A stretch of DNA of 64,000 nt. It comes from Boswellia sacra. Lineage: Eukaryota > Streptophyta > Magnoliopsida > Sapindales > Burseraceae. The stretch is from NCBI GenBank assembly GCA_013180625.2, contig SNVD02013943.1:780690-844689 (forward strand), in the 5' to 3' direction. The stretch's first letter is position 1. Each line of letters starts with the position of its first letter. Under the pieces are notes generated by a model. That model was not told where the DNA came from, made no database searches, and saw nothing but the letters and a program-made list of their open reading frames with translations. The position numbers and the translations under genes are program-made. This document shows, in pieces, positions 48,468 through 64,000 of the stretch.

Positions 48468-48617
48468 ACTAAGTCTTTGGGTGCAGCTGCTGCACCATGC
48501 AGCGTGCTGCCCTGGCCCAATTGGCAGAAGCAGCTCAGCTGCAGCAGTTGAGTTGGCTTCTGCAGATTGGGCCAGGGTGGCACACAGCATGGTGCAGTGG
48601 CTGTACCGAAGTTCCTC
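48468..48617. mobile_element. 150-bp foldback element with 12-bp flanking direct repeats
   Basis: The GC-rich sequence folds back on itself. The left arm GTGCAGCTGCTGCACCATGC..CTGCCCTGGCCCAA and inner GGCAGAAGC pair with the right arm (GCTTCTGCAG..TTGGGCCAGG..GCATGGTGCAG). A roughly 24-nt loop AGCTCAGCTGCAGCAG.. separates them. It is bracketed by a perfect direct repeat TCATTCTCTTAG (48456-48467 and 48618-48629), as a transposed MITE would leave. A MIRNA-like precursor is an alternative reading of the hairpin. Confidence 0.6.
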
Positions 48618-52063: not shown

Positions 52064-53172
52064 ATGAGTGATGTGTCCAAAGATTATACTGAAGCTACTC
52101 ATATTATTGATCCAAATGATGATTACATTCCATAGTTTGATCATTTACAGAGTCATAGAATGGAAAAAGGTCTGTTTGATGTTTGATTTAATTCAGATGA
52201 ACCAACAGAATCTCAAGATATCTCAACATCTAAATTATTTTTCATTTGATGGTGGCAATAATCAACTTTCAAAATATGATGTGATTGGTATGGAGTTTGA
52301 ATCAATAGACAAGGCATAGTCATTTTATTCTAAATACTTTAAGGTCATGGGGTTTAGCATAGGAAGAGGTACACTTGAAAAGAACAAGCAAGGCCAAATC
52401 ATAGTGAGAAGGTGGGTATGTTCAAAACAAGGGTATAGATTGTCAAAGTGGCTTGATAGATCTGATAGGGTCCATGAACCTAGATCAATAACAACACTAA
52501 GATGTACTATTACTTTCCGAATTTGTTTGGATAGGTCATATATGGAATTTTGTTGTGAAGGATTTTGTTGATAGTCATAACCATGAATTGGTGGCTCTAA
52601 ATCATGTCCAATTTTTGTGATCACATAGATTTGTGCAAGAGTCTGATTTCACAGTAGTAAAATCTCTTCATCACGTTGGAATTAAAACATCTCAGGTAAT
52701 GGATTGTATTGTTGATCAATCTAGTGCCTATGAAGAAATAGGTTTCATTTGTAAGGATTTACAAAATTGACTAGACAATAGTTGTCGTATTGAAATTAAA
52801 GATAATGACTTTGAGACAATCATTTCATACCTATTAACTAAACAAGAGATTGATCTGAGATTGCTTTTTTAGTACACAATTGCTGAAGAAAATAGACTTG
52901 CAAATTTGTTTTCGTGCGACAATAGTTCACAGTATGATTACCCTTGCTTTGGAGATGTTCTTTCTTTTGATTCCACATACAGAAAAAAATGCATACAACA
53001 AGCCTTTAGTTCTCCTGTTGGTTGTATTTATCATTGGAGGATAATAGTTTTTGGTTTTGCATTACTATCTAATGAAATGGTTGATAAATATGTATGGCTC
53101 TTAGAGACCTTTTTGCTGCAATGGATAATAAAAAAACCTAAAGCAGTCATTATAGATGGTAATAAGGCAACG
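52064..53172 (+). pseudogene. FAR1/FHY3-related (FRS) pseudogene, truncated
   Basis: The intact family consists of transposase-derived transcription factors with an N-terminal FAR1 DNA-binding domain and a MULE-type transposase domain. Here an acidic start (52064-52133) is followed by the FAR1 domain (about 52275-52440), showing GMEFESIDKA, FYSKYFKVMGFSI and VRRWVCSKQGYR. The MULE domain (about 52900-53172) shows CFGDVLSFDSTYR, VFGFALLSNE, KYVWLLETFL and AVIIDGNKA. Several stops (52134, 52317, about 52769 and about 52870) and frame changes break it. It ends abruptly at 53172, where an LTR retrotransposon was inserted, so any 3' part lies beyond the retroelement stack and outside the window. 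It could derive from a host FRS gene or from a FAR1-type MULE. Confidence 0.8.
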
Positions 53173-55503: not shown

Positions 55504-56919
55504 TGATGCGTTCGAAACTAGCAAGAATACTAGTCGCACAAGTAATAAAGTGATGAGTAAGATATCGTTCCCACGAGGATTGATTCTAATTGAATTTGTT
55601 ATTTTCTAGCAACAACAAACTAAATGAGGGGTTTTGTTGATTGATTAACTAAACTCAATACGAAAGCAAATAAAGAATAATACAATACAAAGTTAAATCA
55701 ATTGAGAAATACACAATGAAAGAAATCTGGTTAAGGGATCATTCTCTACCACAAGATATGTATTTGCGAATTAATCATAGAATTATCATCTAATTACACC
55801 ATTGAAATTATCAACCGTAGATAACAACAAGCTCTGTTATCCCAATCTTTCCTTACTTTGTTGTTAAATAAAACAGGCTCTTTATTTAATCTCTATCCAT
55901 TAAACAACCTAGAACAAGCTCTCTAAATTTAATTCAATGGATGCATTACGATAAGAAAGATAGGTTGATCTAAGCAATAAACACACAAGCTCGGATTATT
56001 TAACTTAGGTTGTATTCTCCAATTGCAATCTCTGATCACAATTTTGCTACTAAGGATTAGAAATTCAAGACAATTACGGATCAAGATTTCTACTCTAGCA
56101 ATAGACAACAACCAGATTATATTCAGTTGGCCATTCCAAATACAATCAGCAAGCAATCATAAGCATTAGATATGGGAAAATACAAGCAACTTCAATTAGA
56201 GAATTGGATAACAATTTCTTGCACAATCAACTCACAAAAACCATATCAAGGGCTTTGAAATCACCCTCAACCAATTCAGATTCAGTTACACATGTTTAAA
56301 AACGTCATAAATACAATACAATACATAAAAATTCCAGAAGATGAAAGGAAAATGATAAACTTAGCAAATCTGATGAAATCTCTTAGGATTTGTAGTTCTT
56401 CCTCTTTCCAAGCCTTCAATCTCCTTCAAGAACTCCAAGAGATGAGAGAAATCCAAAGATGCAGCCTCCTCCACGTTCTCCCCTCTTCAAGTTATGAAAA
56501 TAAAACCCTAAAATGTGTTTAAATACTCTGCTACAGTAACTTGCTACAGTGCTGTATTTAATAACATGCTACAGTGATATGTGAATTACAAATATACACT
56601 TCTCATACCATTTTTATCACAACTTTCGGTACACTACATAAATTCGTGAACCATAAATTTCTCCAAAAAATAGACTTCGAGAGCTTTCCAATGGTATATA
56701 GCATGTTATCCGGTTAATTGTTTATCGATACAATCAACTCCGAGAAATTGGTTGATTAGCAGCGGTGAAAATGAAGGGTTTTACTCCAATTTTGTGCAAG
56801 TTCCTCCAAAACTCCTACAAACATAAAAAACCACACAAAAACATAAAAATACCAAGGAATATAGCAAAGAAACATAGACAGAATTGATATGAAAATGATA
56901 TATAAATAGACACCTATCA
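55504..56919 (-). repeat. 3' LTR of the Athila-like element
   Basis: 1416 bp, TG..CA, alignable over its length to the solo LTR at 7394-8816. On minus the U3 promoter area has a TATTTAAA-type TATA (about 56515-56522) with three ACTGTAGCA motifs just upstream (about 56527-56576), matching the layout in the solo LTR. Confidence 0.93.
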
Positions 56920-56934
56920 AATTCCCCCACACTT
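56920..56934 (-). other. polypurine tract
   Basis: AAGTGTGGGGGAATT on minus, directly abutting the 3' LTR, where plus-strand DNA synthesis is primed. A second similar tract lies at 57637-57657, beside a palindromic ACATTGAGGACAATGTG motif. Confidence 0.85.
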
Positions 56935-58895
56935 AGACTTTGCTAGTCCTCGAGCAACTACAACGATATTAGATCGAAACAGAATCAAAGAAAAATTAAA
57001 ACAACACAAATGCTTCAACTTGCAAATAGGCCTCAAAGATTGTACTTAATTTTAACCAAAGGAAAACTTCAAAATTATGCACTTGATCAAAAATTTCATT
57101 TCAAAGATTAGTTTCGCTCTACTTTAATTCCTTGTGTGTGTGTAGAGCCATTTTCACATAATCACTTGTAACTCGGATGAGTTTATGCATAAAAATGAAT
57201 CGTATTTAATAGTAAAGATATGTGTATAAATGAACTCCATAGGCCTGCTTTTCAAGTCACTCTCCACTAATATAGACAAGCACAATACCAAGGATCAAGT
57301 AGGACTTTATTAAGCTTGTAACGTTTGGCTTGGGTGAAGTATGATAAAGGATAATAATTTGGCTCAAATCACCCACAAACACATAAATCATTCAAGATTA
57401 TGTAGAGCTCAACCACATAACATAAAAAAAAAATTCGTTCGAATTCACCAAGTGACTCCCCCAAATTTATTCAGAACACTCAATCTCTCTTTTTATTATT
57501 GTTTTTTTTAACACAAAAGAAATTATACCCCCACACTTTGTTGTTTCATTCTTTTGAATAACACTCAAGGGTATAGATTTTTTTCTTTTTTTTTCCTTTT
57601 TTCTTTTCTTCTTTTTTTTCTTTTTTTTAACTGCTGCAATTCCCCTCCCCCACACTTAAACAACACATTGTCCTCAATGTGTAAGTACGTGAAAGATAAG
57701 TACAGAGTGTTTTTTTCTTTCTTTCTTTTTCTTTTTTTTTACTAACACAATAAAACTCACTTGCATTGCTCATGGCACAATCCAACCTCCTTTAACTTCC
57801 CAAAAATAGAACATAGCTCAAAATGTAATCATGAATGATATACATGCTCATAGGTATTGGAGAGAAAAAAAATTCATTTGAGGTTAGGAAATCTTTTAGT
57901 GAGTTAACAAGAAAAAAAAAAATTTTCAGAGGCTCAAAAGGGTAACTAGGGATCAATTTCAATCAAGGTTGGCTAGTAAAGCTCAAACGGTCTAAAGATG
58001 TCCTAAATCATTTCCCCAATATTGCACAGTCTAAGATTTCGCCTCGAGTGACCATCAAACAGGTTCTAGAATTCATTAAAATCTGAAGAAACACTTAAAT
58101 TGCATAAACCTTCTCTAAGTAAACAAATAACTCAGTGATAATGACTCTGTACTCAATGTTGTGCAAGGAATCAAAGGTAAAGCAAAAACTAATATGCATT
58201 TCAAGCACACAGATCCATGCATCATTTATCATTTTCCAAGAGTTATTCTTAATTCAATCATTGTCTTATCATTGACCCACAAAATGCAAGAAAAGAGGTA
58301 CGTGGCGTTGTTACACCTGAGTCAAGATTGTATATTTCAACAATCCTTAGGACCAGTAGCCCGCAGACTTAAGGTTTCCAGCCTATATACCTTTATTATG
58401 AAAGAACAAAACAAGAAACAAGACGCTTCAAACAACATGAAATAAACAAACTACAGATTTATTTTGAGAGAATGCGTTTCAAGAGTTAAGGAAACCCCAT
58501 ATTCTGCCATTCTCAGGTTTTTCCACAATGTTTTTTTTTTCAAATCGAAACTGATAAAGACAAAAATACATAACAACTCTAGATTACACAAAACTAAACT
58601 TACTCATAAAATAACAAAGTCCAACCAGCCAGCAAACAAAAACAAGTCAGTTAGAATGGATCTAAAAAGTTTAGAAGTTAGCCTCTTTATTCAGCCATTA
58701 TAGATTGAAGAGATCCAGAATGCGTTTCAAGAGGAATTGAACTTTTTAAGCCACCACTCTAAAAGCCATGATTAGAAAACATTACCTGGGGCGAAAGAAA
58801 TAACCTGAAAAACTCAAAAGAAATGACATCAAAAATCTCAAATAAACACACTAAAAAGAAAGTAAACAAAAACGAAACAAACCAATAGATAGAGA
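56935..58895 (-). other. non-coding 3' internal region of the Athila-like element
   Basis: Holds T/C-rich stretches (about 57575-57630 and 57710-57740) and the second polypurine-like tract (57637-57657). No coding region recognised. GAATGCGTTTCAAGAG occurs twice (58470 and about 58718), hinting at a small duplication downstream of the LOG copy. Confidence 0.5.
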
Positions 58896-59545
58896 TTACA
58901 GATGGAGCGATAAATCCAGTCTACGCCTTTTATTGGCTTCTCCAAACCAATCTATCCGAGCCGTTGTTGGATCAGGTGAATAGACGAATTCTTGGAGTTT
59001 ATCAATTAACTCCCCTGCAGTTGAAGCTGTAACCAGGATTTGCCTCGCCGACAATGAGATGAAGTTTTTTTCTACAGCTTGATCAAGAAAGGACAACAAA
59101 CCATCAAAAAAATTATTGACATTTAACAAACCAATGGGTTTCAGATGGATGTTTAGCTGTGCCCAAGAGGTGATTTGAAATATCTCCTCTAATGTACCAT
59201 AACCACCGGGCAAAGCTATAAATGCATCAGATTTAATGACCATATGTGCAATACGCTCATGCATACTCGAAACCTGTAACTCTTCCCCCATGGTGTTGCT
59301 TACGATATCTCGTACAGCTAATGGTTTAGGGATAATGCCGAGAACTTTGCTCCCTCCTAGGGATGCAGCTTTTGACACACACCCCATTAACCTAAGACTA
59401 CCCCTCCATAAATCAAATGAATACCCCTCGCAGCTAATGTCCTACCAAGATCAAGAGCTGCTGTTGTAAACTCTCCATCTTTACCAAATTGCGATCCACA
59501 AAATACGCATATATTTTGGAATCGCCGAATTGGTGTTTTCTCCAT
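58896..59545 (-). pseudogene. LOG: intron-less LOG (cytokinin riboside 5'-monophosphate phosphoribohydrolase) copy with one frameshift
   Basis: LOG enzymes release active cytokinin bases from their nucleotides. On minus, an ATG at 59545 opens a frame with the LOG N-terminus (ICVFCGSQFGKDGEF, then AALDLGRTLAARGIHLIYGG). A one-base deficit in the G run at about 59403-59406 shifts the frame, giving a stop at about 59390. The rest is open from 59387 to 58896 (163 codons plus stop). It contains the MHER segment and the signature PGGYGTLEEIF, then SWAQLNIHLKPIGLLN, so the catalytic Arg and Glu region is kept. Counted across the shift the copy is about 216 residues, the usual LOG size. Plant LOG genes have several introns and this copy has none, so it looks like a captured processed copy. 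A product starting at ATG 59387 would lack the nucleotide-binding N-terminus. Confidence 0.9.
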
Positions 59546-59749
59546 TTCTACAATTGCTCTAAACTTGTGTAAGACAATGATGCACGTTAGGTATTATGCG
59601 ATTCAAGTGCAAGACAGGTTATAAAATGACATTTGAGAATATGCAAAATGGATGTATACACACATAAAACTCTCAAATTTGACACATGGGTACATAATTT
59701 CGGTGGGGGATGCTCGATGCAGATTTATCGCCCCAAAATTTGAAAAAAT

Positions 59750-59950
59750 GAGATATGCTTTCGGCGAGGTTTGACAAAACCTACACACTTGTCTCCCACG
59801 TGAAGAATGGAAAATGGAGATACACTTTCGGTGGGGGTTGACAAAACCGCCACACTTGTCTCCCACGTGAAGCATGAAAAGTAGAGATATACTTTCGATG
59901 GAGGTTGACAAAACCTCCACACTTGTCTCCCACGTGTACTTACGTCATAG
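59750..59950 (-). repeat. three 67-bp tandem repeats, each with a CACGTG G-box
   Basis: Units 59750-59816, 59817-59883 and 59884-59950, with a decayed partial unit before (from about 59699). Each contains CTCCCACGTG; the CACGTG hexamers are at 59797, 59864 and 59931. Each also contains a small inverted repeat around GGTTGACAAAACC. The array lies 0.2-0.4 kb upstream of the LOG copy on the same strand. G-boxes bind plant bZIP and bHLH factors, so an enhancer role is possible but untested. Confidence 0.85.
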
Positions 59951-60207: not shown

Positions 60208-60718
60208 CTAGCAAACAGGGACGTTTTTAGTCAGATTCCCTAGACTATAACACTGCGATTCATCACGAAATTGTGTCCATAGATTAAGCAATTCACGCTG
60301 AACAAGTCCACAAGAATGTGACTCAAGAGTTAATAAAACATTATCCAGCGACTCATTACTCAGACCATTGTTAATAAATAACAGTTTATCTTCTCTATTT
60401 CTGGACACAACCTAATGAACGACAAGTCTTGTTACAATTCCATCTAGCACATTTATAACATACTTGTAACCTTTTTGCTCTTCGCCTCTTGGCGTAGTGG
60501 CTCTTTCCTAGACCAGGCATGTATTTTGCTAGGTTAATATCAGGCTCACCGAACAATCTTACCTTGGCTTCGATAAGACATCGGATATCCGTAGGCACAT
60601 TTAGGAGCATCAACGCCCAAAGTCTAGTCATCCGCACTTTATAAATTTTATACACAGCATTTTGAGGAAGTGAAGGGAAATATTTACGAAGGTTTGACAC
60701 AAAGATATCGGCATCCAT
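60208..60718 (-). pseudogene. ORF resembling flexivirus nucleic-acid-binding protein (basic + zinc finger), frameshifted
   Basis: A 107-codon ORF (60718-60395) starts at an ATG. It ends in an arginine-rich block followed by a Cys cluster: KSHYAKRRRAKRL (residues 72-84), then cysteines at 87, 90, 95, 99 and 104. An overlapping frame (60408-60208) appears to be its continuation after a one-step frameshift, total about 165-170 residues. The GxSxYAxRRRA..C-x2-C layout is that of the small nucleic-acid-binding, silencing-related proteins encoded near the 3' end of carla-, viti-, tricho- and mandarivirus genomes. I see no coat protein or other viral gene beside it. It could instead be an unknown retroelement protein with convergent basic-zinc features. 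It begins directly after a scrap of pol. Confidence 0.55.
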
Positions 60719-61288: not shown

Positions 61289-64000
61289 TTAAGCTCTTGA
61301 TTTCCACTGCACCATGGGGAAAAAATTAGTAATAACAAAAGGTCCAACCCATCGAGATCGTAATTTACCTGGAAAGAACTTGAGGCGAGAATGAAATAAA
61401 AGAACTTTCTGTCCCACTTCAAAATTCTTCCTGGAGATCATTTTATCATGAAATGCCTTAGTTCTCTCCTTGTAAATTCTGGAATTCTCATAGGTATCAT
61501 TTCTAAGTTCTTCCAATTCTTGCAGTTGAAGCTTCCTTTGTTCTCTAGCAGCATCCATCTCCATGTTACAAAGCTTTACTGCCCACCATGCTTTATGTTT
61601 GAGCTCCACTGGAAGGTGGCGTGGCTTACCATAGACTAACCTATATAGAGACATACCAATAGGTATCTTGTAAGCAGTCCGGTATGCCCAAAGTGCATCA
61701 TTCAATCGTATGCTCCAATCTTTTCGGTTCAGATTCACTGTCTTCTCAAGAATGGACTTGACTTCTCGATTTGAAACTTCAACTTGACCACTAGTTTGTG
61801 GATGATATGCAGTAGACACCTTGTGAGTGATGTTGTATTTCTTGAGCAAGGCTTCAAATAATCGGTTGCAGAAATGTGTCCCTCTGTCGCTAATCATGGC
61901 TCTTGGTGTTCCAAATCTCGCAAAAATGTTAGATTTCACAAAATCTACAACAACTTTAGAATCATTAGTTCTCGTAGCTTTTGCTTCCACCCATTTAGAA
62001 ACATAATCCACAGCAAGTATAATGTAAACATTACCAAAAGATGAAGGAAAAGGACCCATGAAATCAAGACCCCACACATCAAAAATCTCGACAATAAGTA
62101 TAGGGGTTTGTGGCATTTGATTTTTGGCACTTAAATTACCTGTCCTTTGACAACGGTCACAAGCTTTGCAGAACAGATATGCATCTTTGAACAATGATGG
62201 CCAGTAGAATCCACAATCAAGAACTTTAAGGGCTGTTCTTTTTGGTCCGAAATGACCTCCACATGCATAAGAATGACAGAAGGTTAAAATTGAATTAAAT
62301 TTAGATTCAGAAATGCACCTTCTTATCACTTGGTCAGAACAATGCTTCCATAAGTACGGATCATCCCATATGTAATACTGGGCAATGTTCTTGATCTTGT
62401 CTCTTTGAGCTCGAGTCAAGTCATGTGGTAGCTTCTTGGTAACTAAGTAGTTGACAATATCTACATACCAAAGGGCTACTACATTTAGAGACAACAATTG
62501 TTCATCTGAAAAACTTTCTTGTAATGGCAGTGCATTCTTATCATGGATAATGCGACTGAGATGGTCTGCAACTAAGTTTTCACTTCCCTTCTTGTCTTTG
62601 ATTTCCAAGTCAAACTCCTGTAAAAGGAGTATCCACCTAATAAGCCTTGGTTTAGCATCTTTCTTTGTGAGTAAGTACCTCAAAGCTGCATGATCAGAAT
62701 AAACGGTTACTTTAGTACCAATCAAATAAGATCGAAACTTTTCTAGAGCAAAAATAACCGCTAGCAGCTCTTTCTCAGTGGTAGAATAATTAAGTTGAGC
62801 ATTATTTAAAGTTCGAGATGCGTAGTAAATGGCATGTGGAATCTTGTCAATTTGTTGACCCAAAACGGCACCCACAGTATAGTCACTCGCATAGCACATG
62901 ATCTCGAATGGATAATCCCAATTTGGAGATTGGATTATTGGAGTCGAAGTCAAGAGTTCCTTCAGTTTCTCAAATGCCTCTTTGCATTTCTCATCAAATT
63001 CAAAGGCCACATCATTCTGTAATAATCTGCATAGGGGCAATGCTATCTTCGAGAAATCTTTGATGAATCTACGATAAAAACCTGCATGACCAAGAAACGA
63101 ACGAATATCCCGCACACTTGTGGGAGGTGGTAAGGAAAATATAAGATCTATCTTGGATTTATCCACCTCTATACCCTTAGCAGAAATAACATGTCCCAAA
63201 ACTATACCATGATCTACCATAAAATGACATTTCTCCCAATTTAGAACAAGGTTAGTTTCTATACATCTTTGAAGTATGAGGGTAAGGTTGTCAATGTATT
63301 TTTCAAAAGAATCACCAAAAACACTAAAGTCATCCATAAATACTTCAATGATGTTCTCAACATAATCAGAGAAAATACTTACCATACACCTTTGGAAAGT
63401 GGCAGGGGCATTGCAAAGACCGAATGGCATGCGTCGATAGGCAAATGTATCGAATGGGCATGTGAATATAGTTTTCTCTTGATCCTTGGGGGCAATGACA
63501 ATCTGATTATATCCTGAATAGCCATCAAGAAAACAATAGTGAGAATGACCTGCTAACCTTTCCAGCATTTGATCAATGAACGGCAAAGGAAAGTGATCCT
63601 TGCGAGTTGCTGAATTGAGCTTCCGATAATCAATACAAACTCGCCACCCGGTTTGGATACGAGTGGGCACTAGCTCATTATTATCATTCTTAACCATCGT
63701 AACACCAGATTTCTTCGGAACAACTTGGACTGGACTCACCCACTTGCTGTCCGAAATTGGATAAATCACACCCACATATAACAATTTCAGGATTTCTTTC
63801 TTGACAACTTCCATCATCGGAGGATTCAACCTCTGCTTTGCTTCTCTAGTGGGCTTGGATCCCTCTTCTAACAAGATGCGGTGCATGCATACGGCTGGAC
63901 TAATACCTTTGATGTCAGCGATTGTCCACCCAATGGTTGTTTTGTGATCTTGAAGCACTCGGATGAGTTTCTCTTCTTGTAATGGTGTAAGGCCCTTTGC
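61289..64000 (-). CDS. pol: Athila-like pol (reverse transcriptase, RNase H, integrase), 5'-partial
   Basis: An open frame of about 900 codons enters from the right edge and runs to 61289. It starts with the pre-RT segment ([12 protein letters not shown]), then reverse transcriptase with [24 protein letters not shown] and the FMDD active site (63340-63329). RNase H shows [25 protein letters not shown] and [10 protein letters not shown]. The integrase zinc region has an H..H..C-x2-C pattern ([18 protein letters not shown]), and the core shows [15 protein letters not shown] and HPQTSGQVE with the three acidic residues. A GPF motif stands near the end. All expected catalytic residues are present and there is no internal stop, so the copy is young or recently active. 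A one-base shift in a homopolymer run at 61316-61325 ends this frame slightly early. Protease and gag must lie outside the window. Confidence 0.95.

Follow-up and report, generated by a model that had tools for sequence, protein, structure and literature searches.

How did a coding sequence of the LOG family come to lie inside a plant retrotransposon, and does it still act there as a cytokinin-activating enzyme? These questions are raised by a stretch of 64,000 nucleotides from Boswellia sacra (contig SNVD02013943.1, positions 780,690 to 844,689), here called the window, which is the end piece of contig C6647 in the assembly that was searched (638.6 Mb, 7431 contigs). The best explanation overall, which we favour with moderate confidence, is that a plant LOG coding sequence was taken up, probably in a single ancient event, by an Athila-like lineage (Ty3/gypsy, OTA), which has held it as an accessory gene together with a gene similar to that of the carlavirus nucleic-acid-binding protein (NABP). 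From the comparison of copies and relatives given below, it is very probable that the lineage has long kept both as accessory genes under selection.

A LOG-like gene within a multicopy element

On the minus strand of the window, the order was pol, an NABP-like frame, 67-bp repeats, the LOG-like gene, a gene-free stretch, a purine tract and the 3′ long terminal repeat (LTR). The LOG-like gene (positions 58896 to 59545, minus strand, identified from open reading frames and PF03641) was free of introns and contained a single frame shift. Its frame started with an ATG at 59545 and broke near 59405, where a short run of G carries a one-base shift; the second frame, open to the stop at 58896, matched PF03641 with an E value of 1.9e-38 and 131 of 131 profile positions covered. 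The PGGYGTLEE signature was unbroken, the best match among solved structures was Arabidopsis At2g37210 (E 1e-47), and the C-terminus, ..NKRRRLDLSLHL, consisted of a basic patch and LxLxL. Positions and profile matches agreed with the original prediction, made from the letters of the window, of a LOG coding region without introns that lies between the integrase and the 3′ LTR in the orientation of pol, and the intact signature and the one-base shift in the G run were both seen in the window frames.

The window by itself could not rule against a host LOG gene standing between two repeats, or against a LOG mRNA that was later retroposed into one element. When the genome was searched with the window LOG, the best 150 of 14396 candidates were 88–100% identical over at least 172 of 181 residues. 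A match to the NABP-like gene stood at a similar spacing in 27 of 30 fetched LOG loci; two of the exceptions (L015 and L018) ended at a contig edge before that position, and the third (L017) was a copy without the equivalent of window positions 60908-59614, as was visible in L037. The LOG-like gene, its flanks and the LTR formed one repeat in 10 of 10 long loci, with the NABP stretch included except in one copy, and of 39 places retrieved with noncoding DNA, 38 held LOG, two of these in part. The order was also found in another genus, where the Rhamnella gene model P0084 is one protein made of integrase (residues 1-41, 66% identity to the window), NABP (41-86, 74% to P0122) and LOG (82-221, 71% to the window). 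The proposed search for further element copies with LOG at this position thus returned many with the gene at the same place. This shared position, the noncoding flanks in the same repeat and the integrase-NABP-LOG order in Rhamnella support capture by the element, as had been suggested, and refute both a host gene between repeats and a later retroposition into one element.

The window's 3′ LTR (positions 55504 to 56919, minus strand, TGATAGG...CGCATCA) was recognised because other copies have the same sequence at both ends. It was preceded by the purine tract GTGTGGGGGAATT, and the region from LOG to the LTR (56920 to 58895, minus strand) was common to other copies and held no recognised gene. 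For seven insertions, the Kimura two-parameter distances between the paired LTRs were 0.0064, 0.0333, 0.0474, 0.0552, 0.0638, 0.0655 and 0.1206, where 0.0552 rests on 414 bp and 0.1206 on 1030 bp. Target duplications of 5 bp were seen, with flanks judged by eye, in five of the seven insertions and were absent in one; another with a truncated LTR was uninformative. The substitution rate in rice is 1.3e-8 per site and year. At this rate, which may not be that of the host, the insertions would be roughly 0.25 to 4.6 million years old.

All 10 long loci, which came from the first 30 LOG matches, were without pol, the equivalent of window position 63809 being joined to that of 61164. When 20 of the 39 copies in the sample drawn with noncoding DNA were inspected, pol stood beside NABP in 11, the same deletion was present in six, and three could not be assigned. 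A pol-less subfamily carries NABP and LOG and must therefore borrow reverse transcriptase and integrase. One locus, L032 (G000:C5820:33000-42900), contained the 3′ part of one copy, an LTR and a second copy in tandem, like a product of unequal recombination. Window positions 57700-58300 and G000:C4897:3995-4595 were 100% identical over 601 bp 3′ of LOG and 94% identical over the adjoining LOG stretch, a contrast due to recombination or to an assembly mosaic. At about 1460-1500, L026 contained what we take to be a Nextera mate-pair junction adapter within the assembly. The assembly is therefore at least partly short-read, and its high-copy repeats may be mosaics. A mosaic assembly blurs the histories of single copies, yet it has no inherent bias to silent over amino-acid changes.

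In the window, pol (61289 to 64000, minus strand, found by profile search) encoded reverse transcriptase, RNase H and integrase over 903 amino acids and ran off the contig end. The RNase H models matched one stretch (about 336-463) before the integrase (566 on) and no second RNase H of Tat was present, which is the order of Athila. The sequence TGGCGCCGTTGCCGGGGA, which follows the 5′ LTR in L033, may be complementary to tRNA-Asp, as would be expected of an Athila primer-binding site. No match to the Athila ORF-1 domain PF03078 was found at E 0.1 in four 5′ frames of L033; the domain is described in 16% of Athila elements and is not a defining trait, and aRH is given as the mark of Tat (PMC6317226).

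A partner gene of the carlavirus NABP family

Between pol and LOG lay a second gene that was absent from the original prediction (60395 to 60718, minus strand), belonging to the family of carlavirus cysteine-rich proteins. Its frame, which stopped after 107 amino acids, matched PF05515 (Viral_NABP) with 29.1 bits (cut-off 23, E 1.2e-6) and PF01623 (Carla_C4) with 22.7 bits (cut-off 20.9, E 9.5e-5), and the interval between it and LOG held three tandem repeats of 67 bp (59741 to 59941, repeat scan). The 37 relatives were mostly 182 amino acids long or pieces of such proteins. Six of them were tested, of which all six reached the PF05515 cut-off and four that of PF01623. An alignment of 22 rows had 36 invariant columns, and the presumed zinc-binding cysteines C85, C88, C93 and C97 as well as R77, R78, A79 and K80 of the basic stretch were the same in 22 of 22 rows. 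The element protein thus shares with the cysteine-rich proteins of carlaviruses, allexiviruses and mandariviruses the PF05515 and PF01623 matches, the four invariant cysteines and the basic RRAK stretch. Compared to viral NABP, it is carried in a retroelement, is mostly 182 amino acids long and has a conserved C-terminal stretch past the profile match.

The sole named host among the NABP-like relatives was Xanthoceras (P0144); a comparison of P0144 with solved structures gave a single match at E 0.33, and the NABP-like protein had no match in PHROGs. Relatives of NABP and LOG were listed on contigs of equal size (P0121 and P0005, 8723 bases; P0155 and P0019, 2128 bases), so each pair probably lies on one contig. 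P0125 is an NABP-like protein on a short public contig of 10263 bases (NCBI and ENA), which could show a larger part of an element in a different host. Proteins of the viral NABP family are described as suppressors of RNA silencing (PMC12172455).

A C-terminal tail and a changed pocket in the LOG-like proteins

Relatives of the LOG-like protein were the best 120 of 4259 in a protein search with the window LOG, and the host set came from a search with Arabidopsis LOG3, whose 120 listed LOGs (119 aligned) were all LOG3-like proteins. The listed relatives were 57–73% identical to the window, and the hosts named among them were Rhamnella, Diplodiscus, Reevesia, Melia, Populus, Rehmannia and Xanthoceras. 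In 105 of the 120, LxLxL stood at most three residues from the C-terminus, with a basic patch before it in 103 of the 105, and this tail occurred in none of the 120 listed host LOGs. The tail of P0022, P0029, P0030, P0032, P0039 and P0086 was off LxLxL by one residue or extended beyond it. Across 37 copies of this genome (sampled as described below), the three Leu were retained in 34–35. A tree was built with the tail removed from the 62 rows that remained of 123 after thinning by similarity, and in it the tailed LOGs were separated from the host LOGs with a support of 100/98; P0029 and P0039, which have no motif, fell inside the tailed group, and P0033 and P0094, also without it, fell on the host side. 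A quick tree of 89 rows gave the same main split. The tail is like an EAR repressor motif, and its binding to TOPLESS is putative. Plant EAR-motif repressors carry LxLxL or DLNxxP (PMC9956375); the element protein has the same LxLxL at its very C-terminus, but on a LOG fold.

For CgLOG, Arg99 and Glu122 are proposed as catalytic residues, adenine is contacted by Met96, Lys100 and Glu121, and the prenyl site is apparently lined by Met96, His97, Lys100, Glu125 and Trp129, with AtLOG3 described as the same (PMC4979012). The element LOG has the fold, the PGGxGTxEE motif and the catalytic Arg and Glu in common with CgLOG and plant type-I LOG (AtLOG3, PDB 2a33), and it differs from both by two replaced pocket residues and by the added basic and LxLxL C-terminus. 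Among the 105 tailed listed LOGs, Arg99 was retained in 98, Glu122 in 104, Trp129 in 104, Met96 in 97 and His97 in 31. The position of Lys100 was I, L or M in 102 of the 105 and K in two, and that of Glu125 was H or Q in 97 and E in one. Both residues were invariant in 119 of 119 aligned host LOGs, were kept together in one of the 105 tailed LOGs (P0038), and were both replaced in the window LOG. The 37 copies of this genome had I at Lys100 in 37 and Q at Glu125 in 34, with Arg99 and Glu122 each kept in 34. Six of the 15 tail-less listed relatives kept Lys100 and Glu125 (P0033, P0034, P0035, P0040, P0094 and P0110); these six and the tailed P0038 with its ordinary pocket suggest that the tail was gained first and that the pocket changed later.

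The predicted structure of the relative P0005 (pLDDT 86.3) had the type-I LOG fold, with a TM score against 2a33 of 0.95 by target length and 0.77 by query length. In PHROGs, the LOG-like protein matched a DprA-like family (E 2e-13), and a viral structure library gave two matches at E < 0.001, the best being a phage LOG-family protein. A scan of viral contigs with P0002, one of the relatives, yielded no match.

An ordinary cytokinin-activating LOG, which would raise active cytokinin in the host cell and so favour transmission of the element, would fit the catalytic Arg kept in 98 of 105 tailed LOGs, the Glu and Trp129 kept in 104 each, the LOG fold of the P0005 model and the purifying selection described below. 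The NABP kin of Chrysanthemum virus B is moreover reported to be a transcription factor that induces hyperplasia (PMC12172455), which would make growth promotion a coherent theme. The pocket points the other way, as Lys100 is replaced by I, L or M in 102 and Glu125 by H or Q in 97 of the 105, with I at the first site in all 37 copies of this genome and Q at the second in 34 of them, and the match to the NCBIfam equivalog of the cytokinin enzyme reached 87 bits against a cut-off of 300, with a query that was part of the protein only. The designation as cytokinin-activating is thus unproven: at two sites of the adenine and prenyl pocket where 119 of 119 host LOGs agree, nearly all of these proteins, the window's included, have other residues, and the gene is classed here as LOG-derived. 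We consider cytokinin activation unlikely.

With the enzyme centre retained and the pocket for the cytokinin side chain altered consistently across relatives, the simplest reading is that the retroelement LOG has a changed substrate. LOG is a member of the SLOG superfamily, in which some proteins are known to bind nucleotide signals. Such kinship, the retained catalytic centre and phosphate loop, and a base pocket changed in one direction would also agree with a protein that has left hormone metabolism and instead binds or cleaves a nucleotide used as a signal in plant immunity (e.g. TIR-made ribosylated AMP), with the basic and LxLxL tail as a localisation or degradation signal. We regard this version as quite improbable.

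Selection on the two genes

The first sample of copies consisted of 30 loci chosen by similarity of the LOG protein, and its query opened with 12 out-of-frame residues. At the G run, 20 of the 30 (window included) were window-like and 10 had other changes, as counted by eye. That nearly all copies share the window's shift was rejected, as the query drew copies with any shift at that place; the dN/dS (ratio of amino-acid-changing to silent substitution rates) of 0.154 and the codon-position and indel contrasts from this sample were discarded, as the copies had been selected by protein similarity. Because the first query favoured shifted copies, a second sample was taken with noncoding DNA, using window positions 57700-58300 as bait. 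The best 40 of 3978 candidates, one of them the window, had a bait identity of 91–100%, so nearer kin of the window were favoured. Among the 39 places fetched, L057 had no LOG match and L071 and L083 had partial ones; these were dropped, and the remaining 36 and the window made 37 copies. The window's frame shift was found in two of the 37, the window and one other.

The original prediction allowed that other copies may carry an intact LOG, and three of the 37 were without stops or frame shifts, two of these three with the catalytic Arg. The 29 frame-breaking events in LOG were private in 23 cases, shared by two copies in four, by three in one and by four in one. The mean dN/dS of LOG was 0.389 over the 37 copies (codon bootstrap, 150 of 666 pairs: 0.284–0.579), and the wrong reading frames gave 0.70 and 0.95. 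By rising dS class, the ratio was 0.99 (dS below 0.05), 0.47, 0.35, 0.31 and 0.27 (0.2–0.3, 12 pairs). Values within classes were 0.42 for 12 pol-containing and 0.46 for six pol-deleted copies, too few to compare.

Variants were then classed as amino-acid-changing : silent : stop-making, with a neutral expectation for LOG of 2.36 : 1 : 0.12. Private LOG variants were 82:36:9. Those in three or more copies were 27:28:2 and thus depleted of amino-acid changes, both against the neutral expectation (p 0.001) and against the private variants (Fisher p 0.012, permutation p 0.008, with the two-copy class outside the tests). The NABP-like gene was analysed in 27 copies that had been selected by LOG and not by NABP; its private variants were 79:27:15, those in two copies 5:6:2 and those in three or more 2:10:0 (private versus three or more, Fisher p 1.4e-4), and dN/dS was 0.372. 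As variants in three or more copies were depleted and private ones were not, LOG was maintained by selection in the source lineages and decays in single copies. In both genes, the pattern is the one expected where a gene counts in the source copies and degenerates once a copy has inserted.

A functionless passenger, captured and amplified by chance with a successful master copy, would explain why 34 of 37 LOG copies are broken and why private and two-copy LOG variants look neutral. It does not account for the depletion of amino-acid changes among variants in three or more copies, which was found in both genes, nor for the drop in LOG dN/dS with age. The tail and the changed pocket also recur in listed relatives that are 57–73% identical, including those of Rhamnella, Diplodiscus, Reevesia, Melia, Populus and Rehmannia, and we consider such a passenger improbable.

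Relation to known elements

Extra genes are common in plant LTR retrotransposons, and the source for LOG domains in LTR elements is reportedly Steinbauerova et al. 2011. A LOG (YgdH) domain is listed for LTR-retrotransposon consensuses of Citrus sinensis, C. clementina and Populus trichocarpa (PMC9289625), where LOG lies inside Gypsy-type elements that are very probably of the same kind as the window's element. In section 12 of that account, LOG is one entry in a domain list, which has no viral-type partner, tail, pocket or selection. Orchid Gypsy elements with an AlkB-type RNA demethylase (PMC9289625) likewise carry a host-like enzyme as an extra open reading frame; the enzyme is a different one and its activity was measured there, whereas the element LOG is known here from sequence. 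The survey in PMC6317226 covers extra frames of at least 250 codons and would miss both genes (216 and 182 codons). LOG in LTR elements is therefore already in print. The NABP partner, the tail, the pocket change and the selection of the element LOG are apparently new, as no report of them was found in searches of open-licence PMC papers.

Elsewhere in the window, remains of a Mutator-like transposase were found at positions 52320-53172 of the plus strand, with the FAR1 DNA-binding domain PF03101 (E 1.4e-8) and the MULE domain PF10551 (E 5.5e-9) in separate frames. An inverted repeat of 55 bp, 82% complementary and with arms 24 nt apart, was present at 48477-48610.

Discussion

Plant LOG genes contain introns, and the sequence captured by the Athila-like lineage may have been a spliced mRNA. 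It would have come to lie beside the gene of the carlavirus NABP family, and both would have been used since as accessory genes. The LOG-like protein may be nuclear and of altered specificity, either as a nucleotide phosphoribohydrolase or as a nucleotide-binding protein, and its tail may bring in the plant co-repressor TOPLESS. The NABP-like protein may bind nucleic acid and dampen RNA silencing. The joint effect would be a host cell that is more permissive for the element, which needs a transcript that escapes silencing and a permissive cell; a silencing suppressor and a co-repressor recruiter would serve both needs. Both proteins would be trans-acting, and that the pol-less form still carries their genes agrees with this. 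This particular pairing of a TOPLESS-recruiting LOG-like protein with a silencing-dampening NABP-like protein is possible and is put forward tentatively.

Several observations weigh against the explanation favoured here or limit it. LOG was without a stop or frame-breaking indel in just three of 37 copies (four of 39 in a coarser count), and one of the three intact copies had lost the catalytic Arg. Its dN/dS of 0.27–0.39 indicates weaker constraint than is usual in host enzymes. LOG variants in exactly two copies were 21:9:5 and seemed as neutral as the private ones, which fits recent sister copies, and two stop-making variants were present in three or more copies. The contrast between private and shared LOG variants was moderate, with p about 0.01. 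The structure model of the NABP-like protein was of low confidence (pLDDT 51.5), and its viral kinship is therefore drawn from sequence profiles alone. Linkage to other retroelement genes was direct in P0084 and indicated by equal contig sizes in two cases; for the other listed relatives it is deduced from the tail and pocket that they have in common. Finally, there is no explanation of why selection should favour a trans-acting gene carried by a non-autonomous element, except where the benefit does not leave the cell.

In a broader form, a lineage found across rosids and in one asterid or more would carry a two-gene cassette for host manipulation. One gene would encode a zinc-finger suppressor of silencing of the carlavirus type. 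The other would encode a nuclear enzyme derived from LOG that recruits TOPLESS and acts on a new substrate, which might be a nucleotide signal in silencing or immunity. We regard this form as rather doubtful. If true, the cassette moves even in a subfamily without reverse transcriptase and integrase, and it would be a retrotransposon effector system against the host in which a cellular gene is combined with one of viral type.

The NABP-like gene links retrotransposons to positive-strand RNA viruses through a shared gene family. Some plant genes that are named LOG or LOGL10 may be copies from retroelements whose active site has changed, rather than hormone genes, which is a warning for annotation; among the listed relatives, the Populus protein P0049 has an open frame and is annotated LOGL10. 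If selection keeps two small accessory genes across plant families, plant retrotransposons would have virus-like effector genes.
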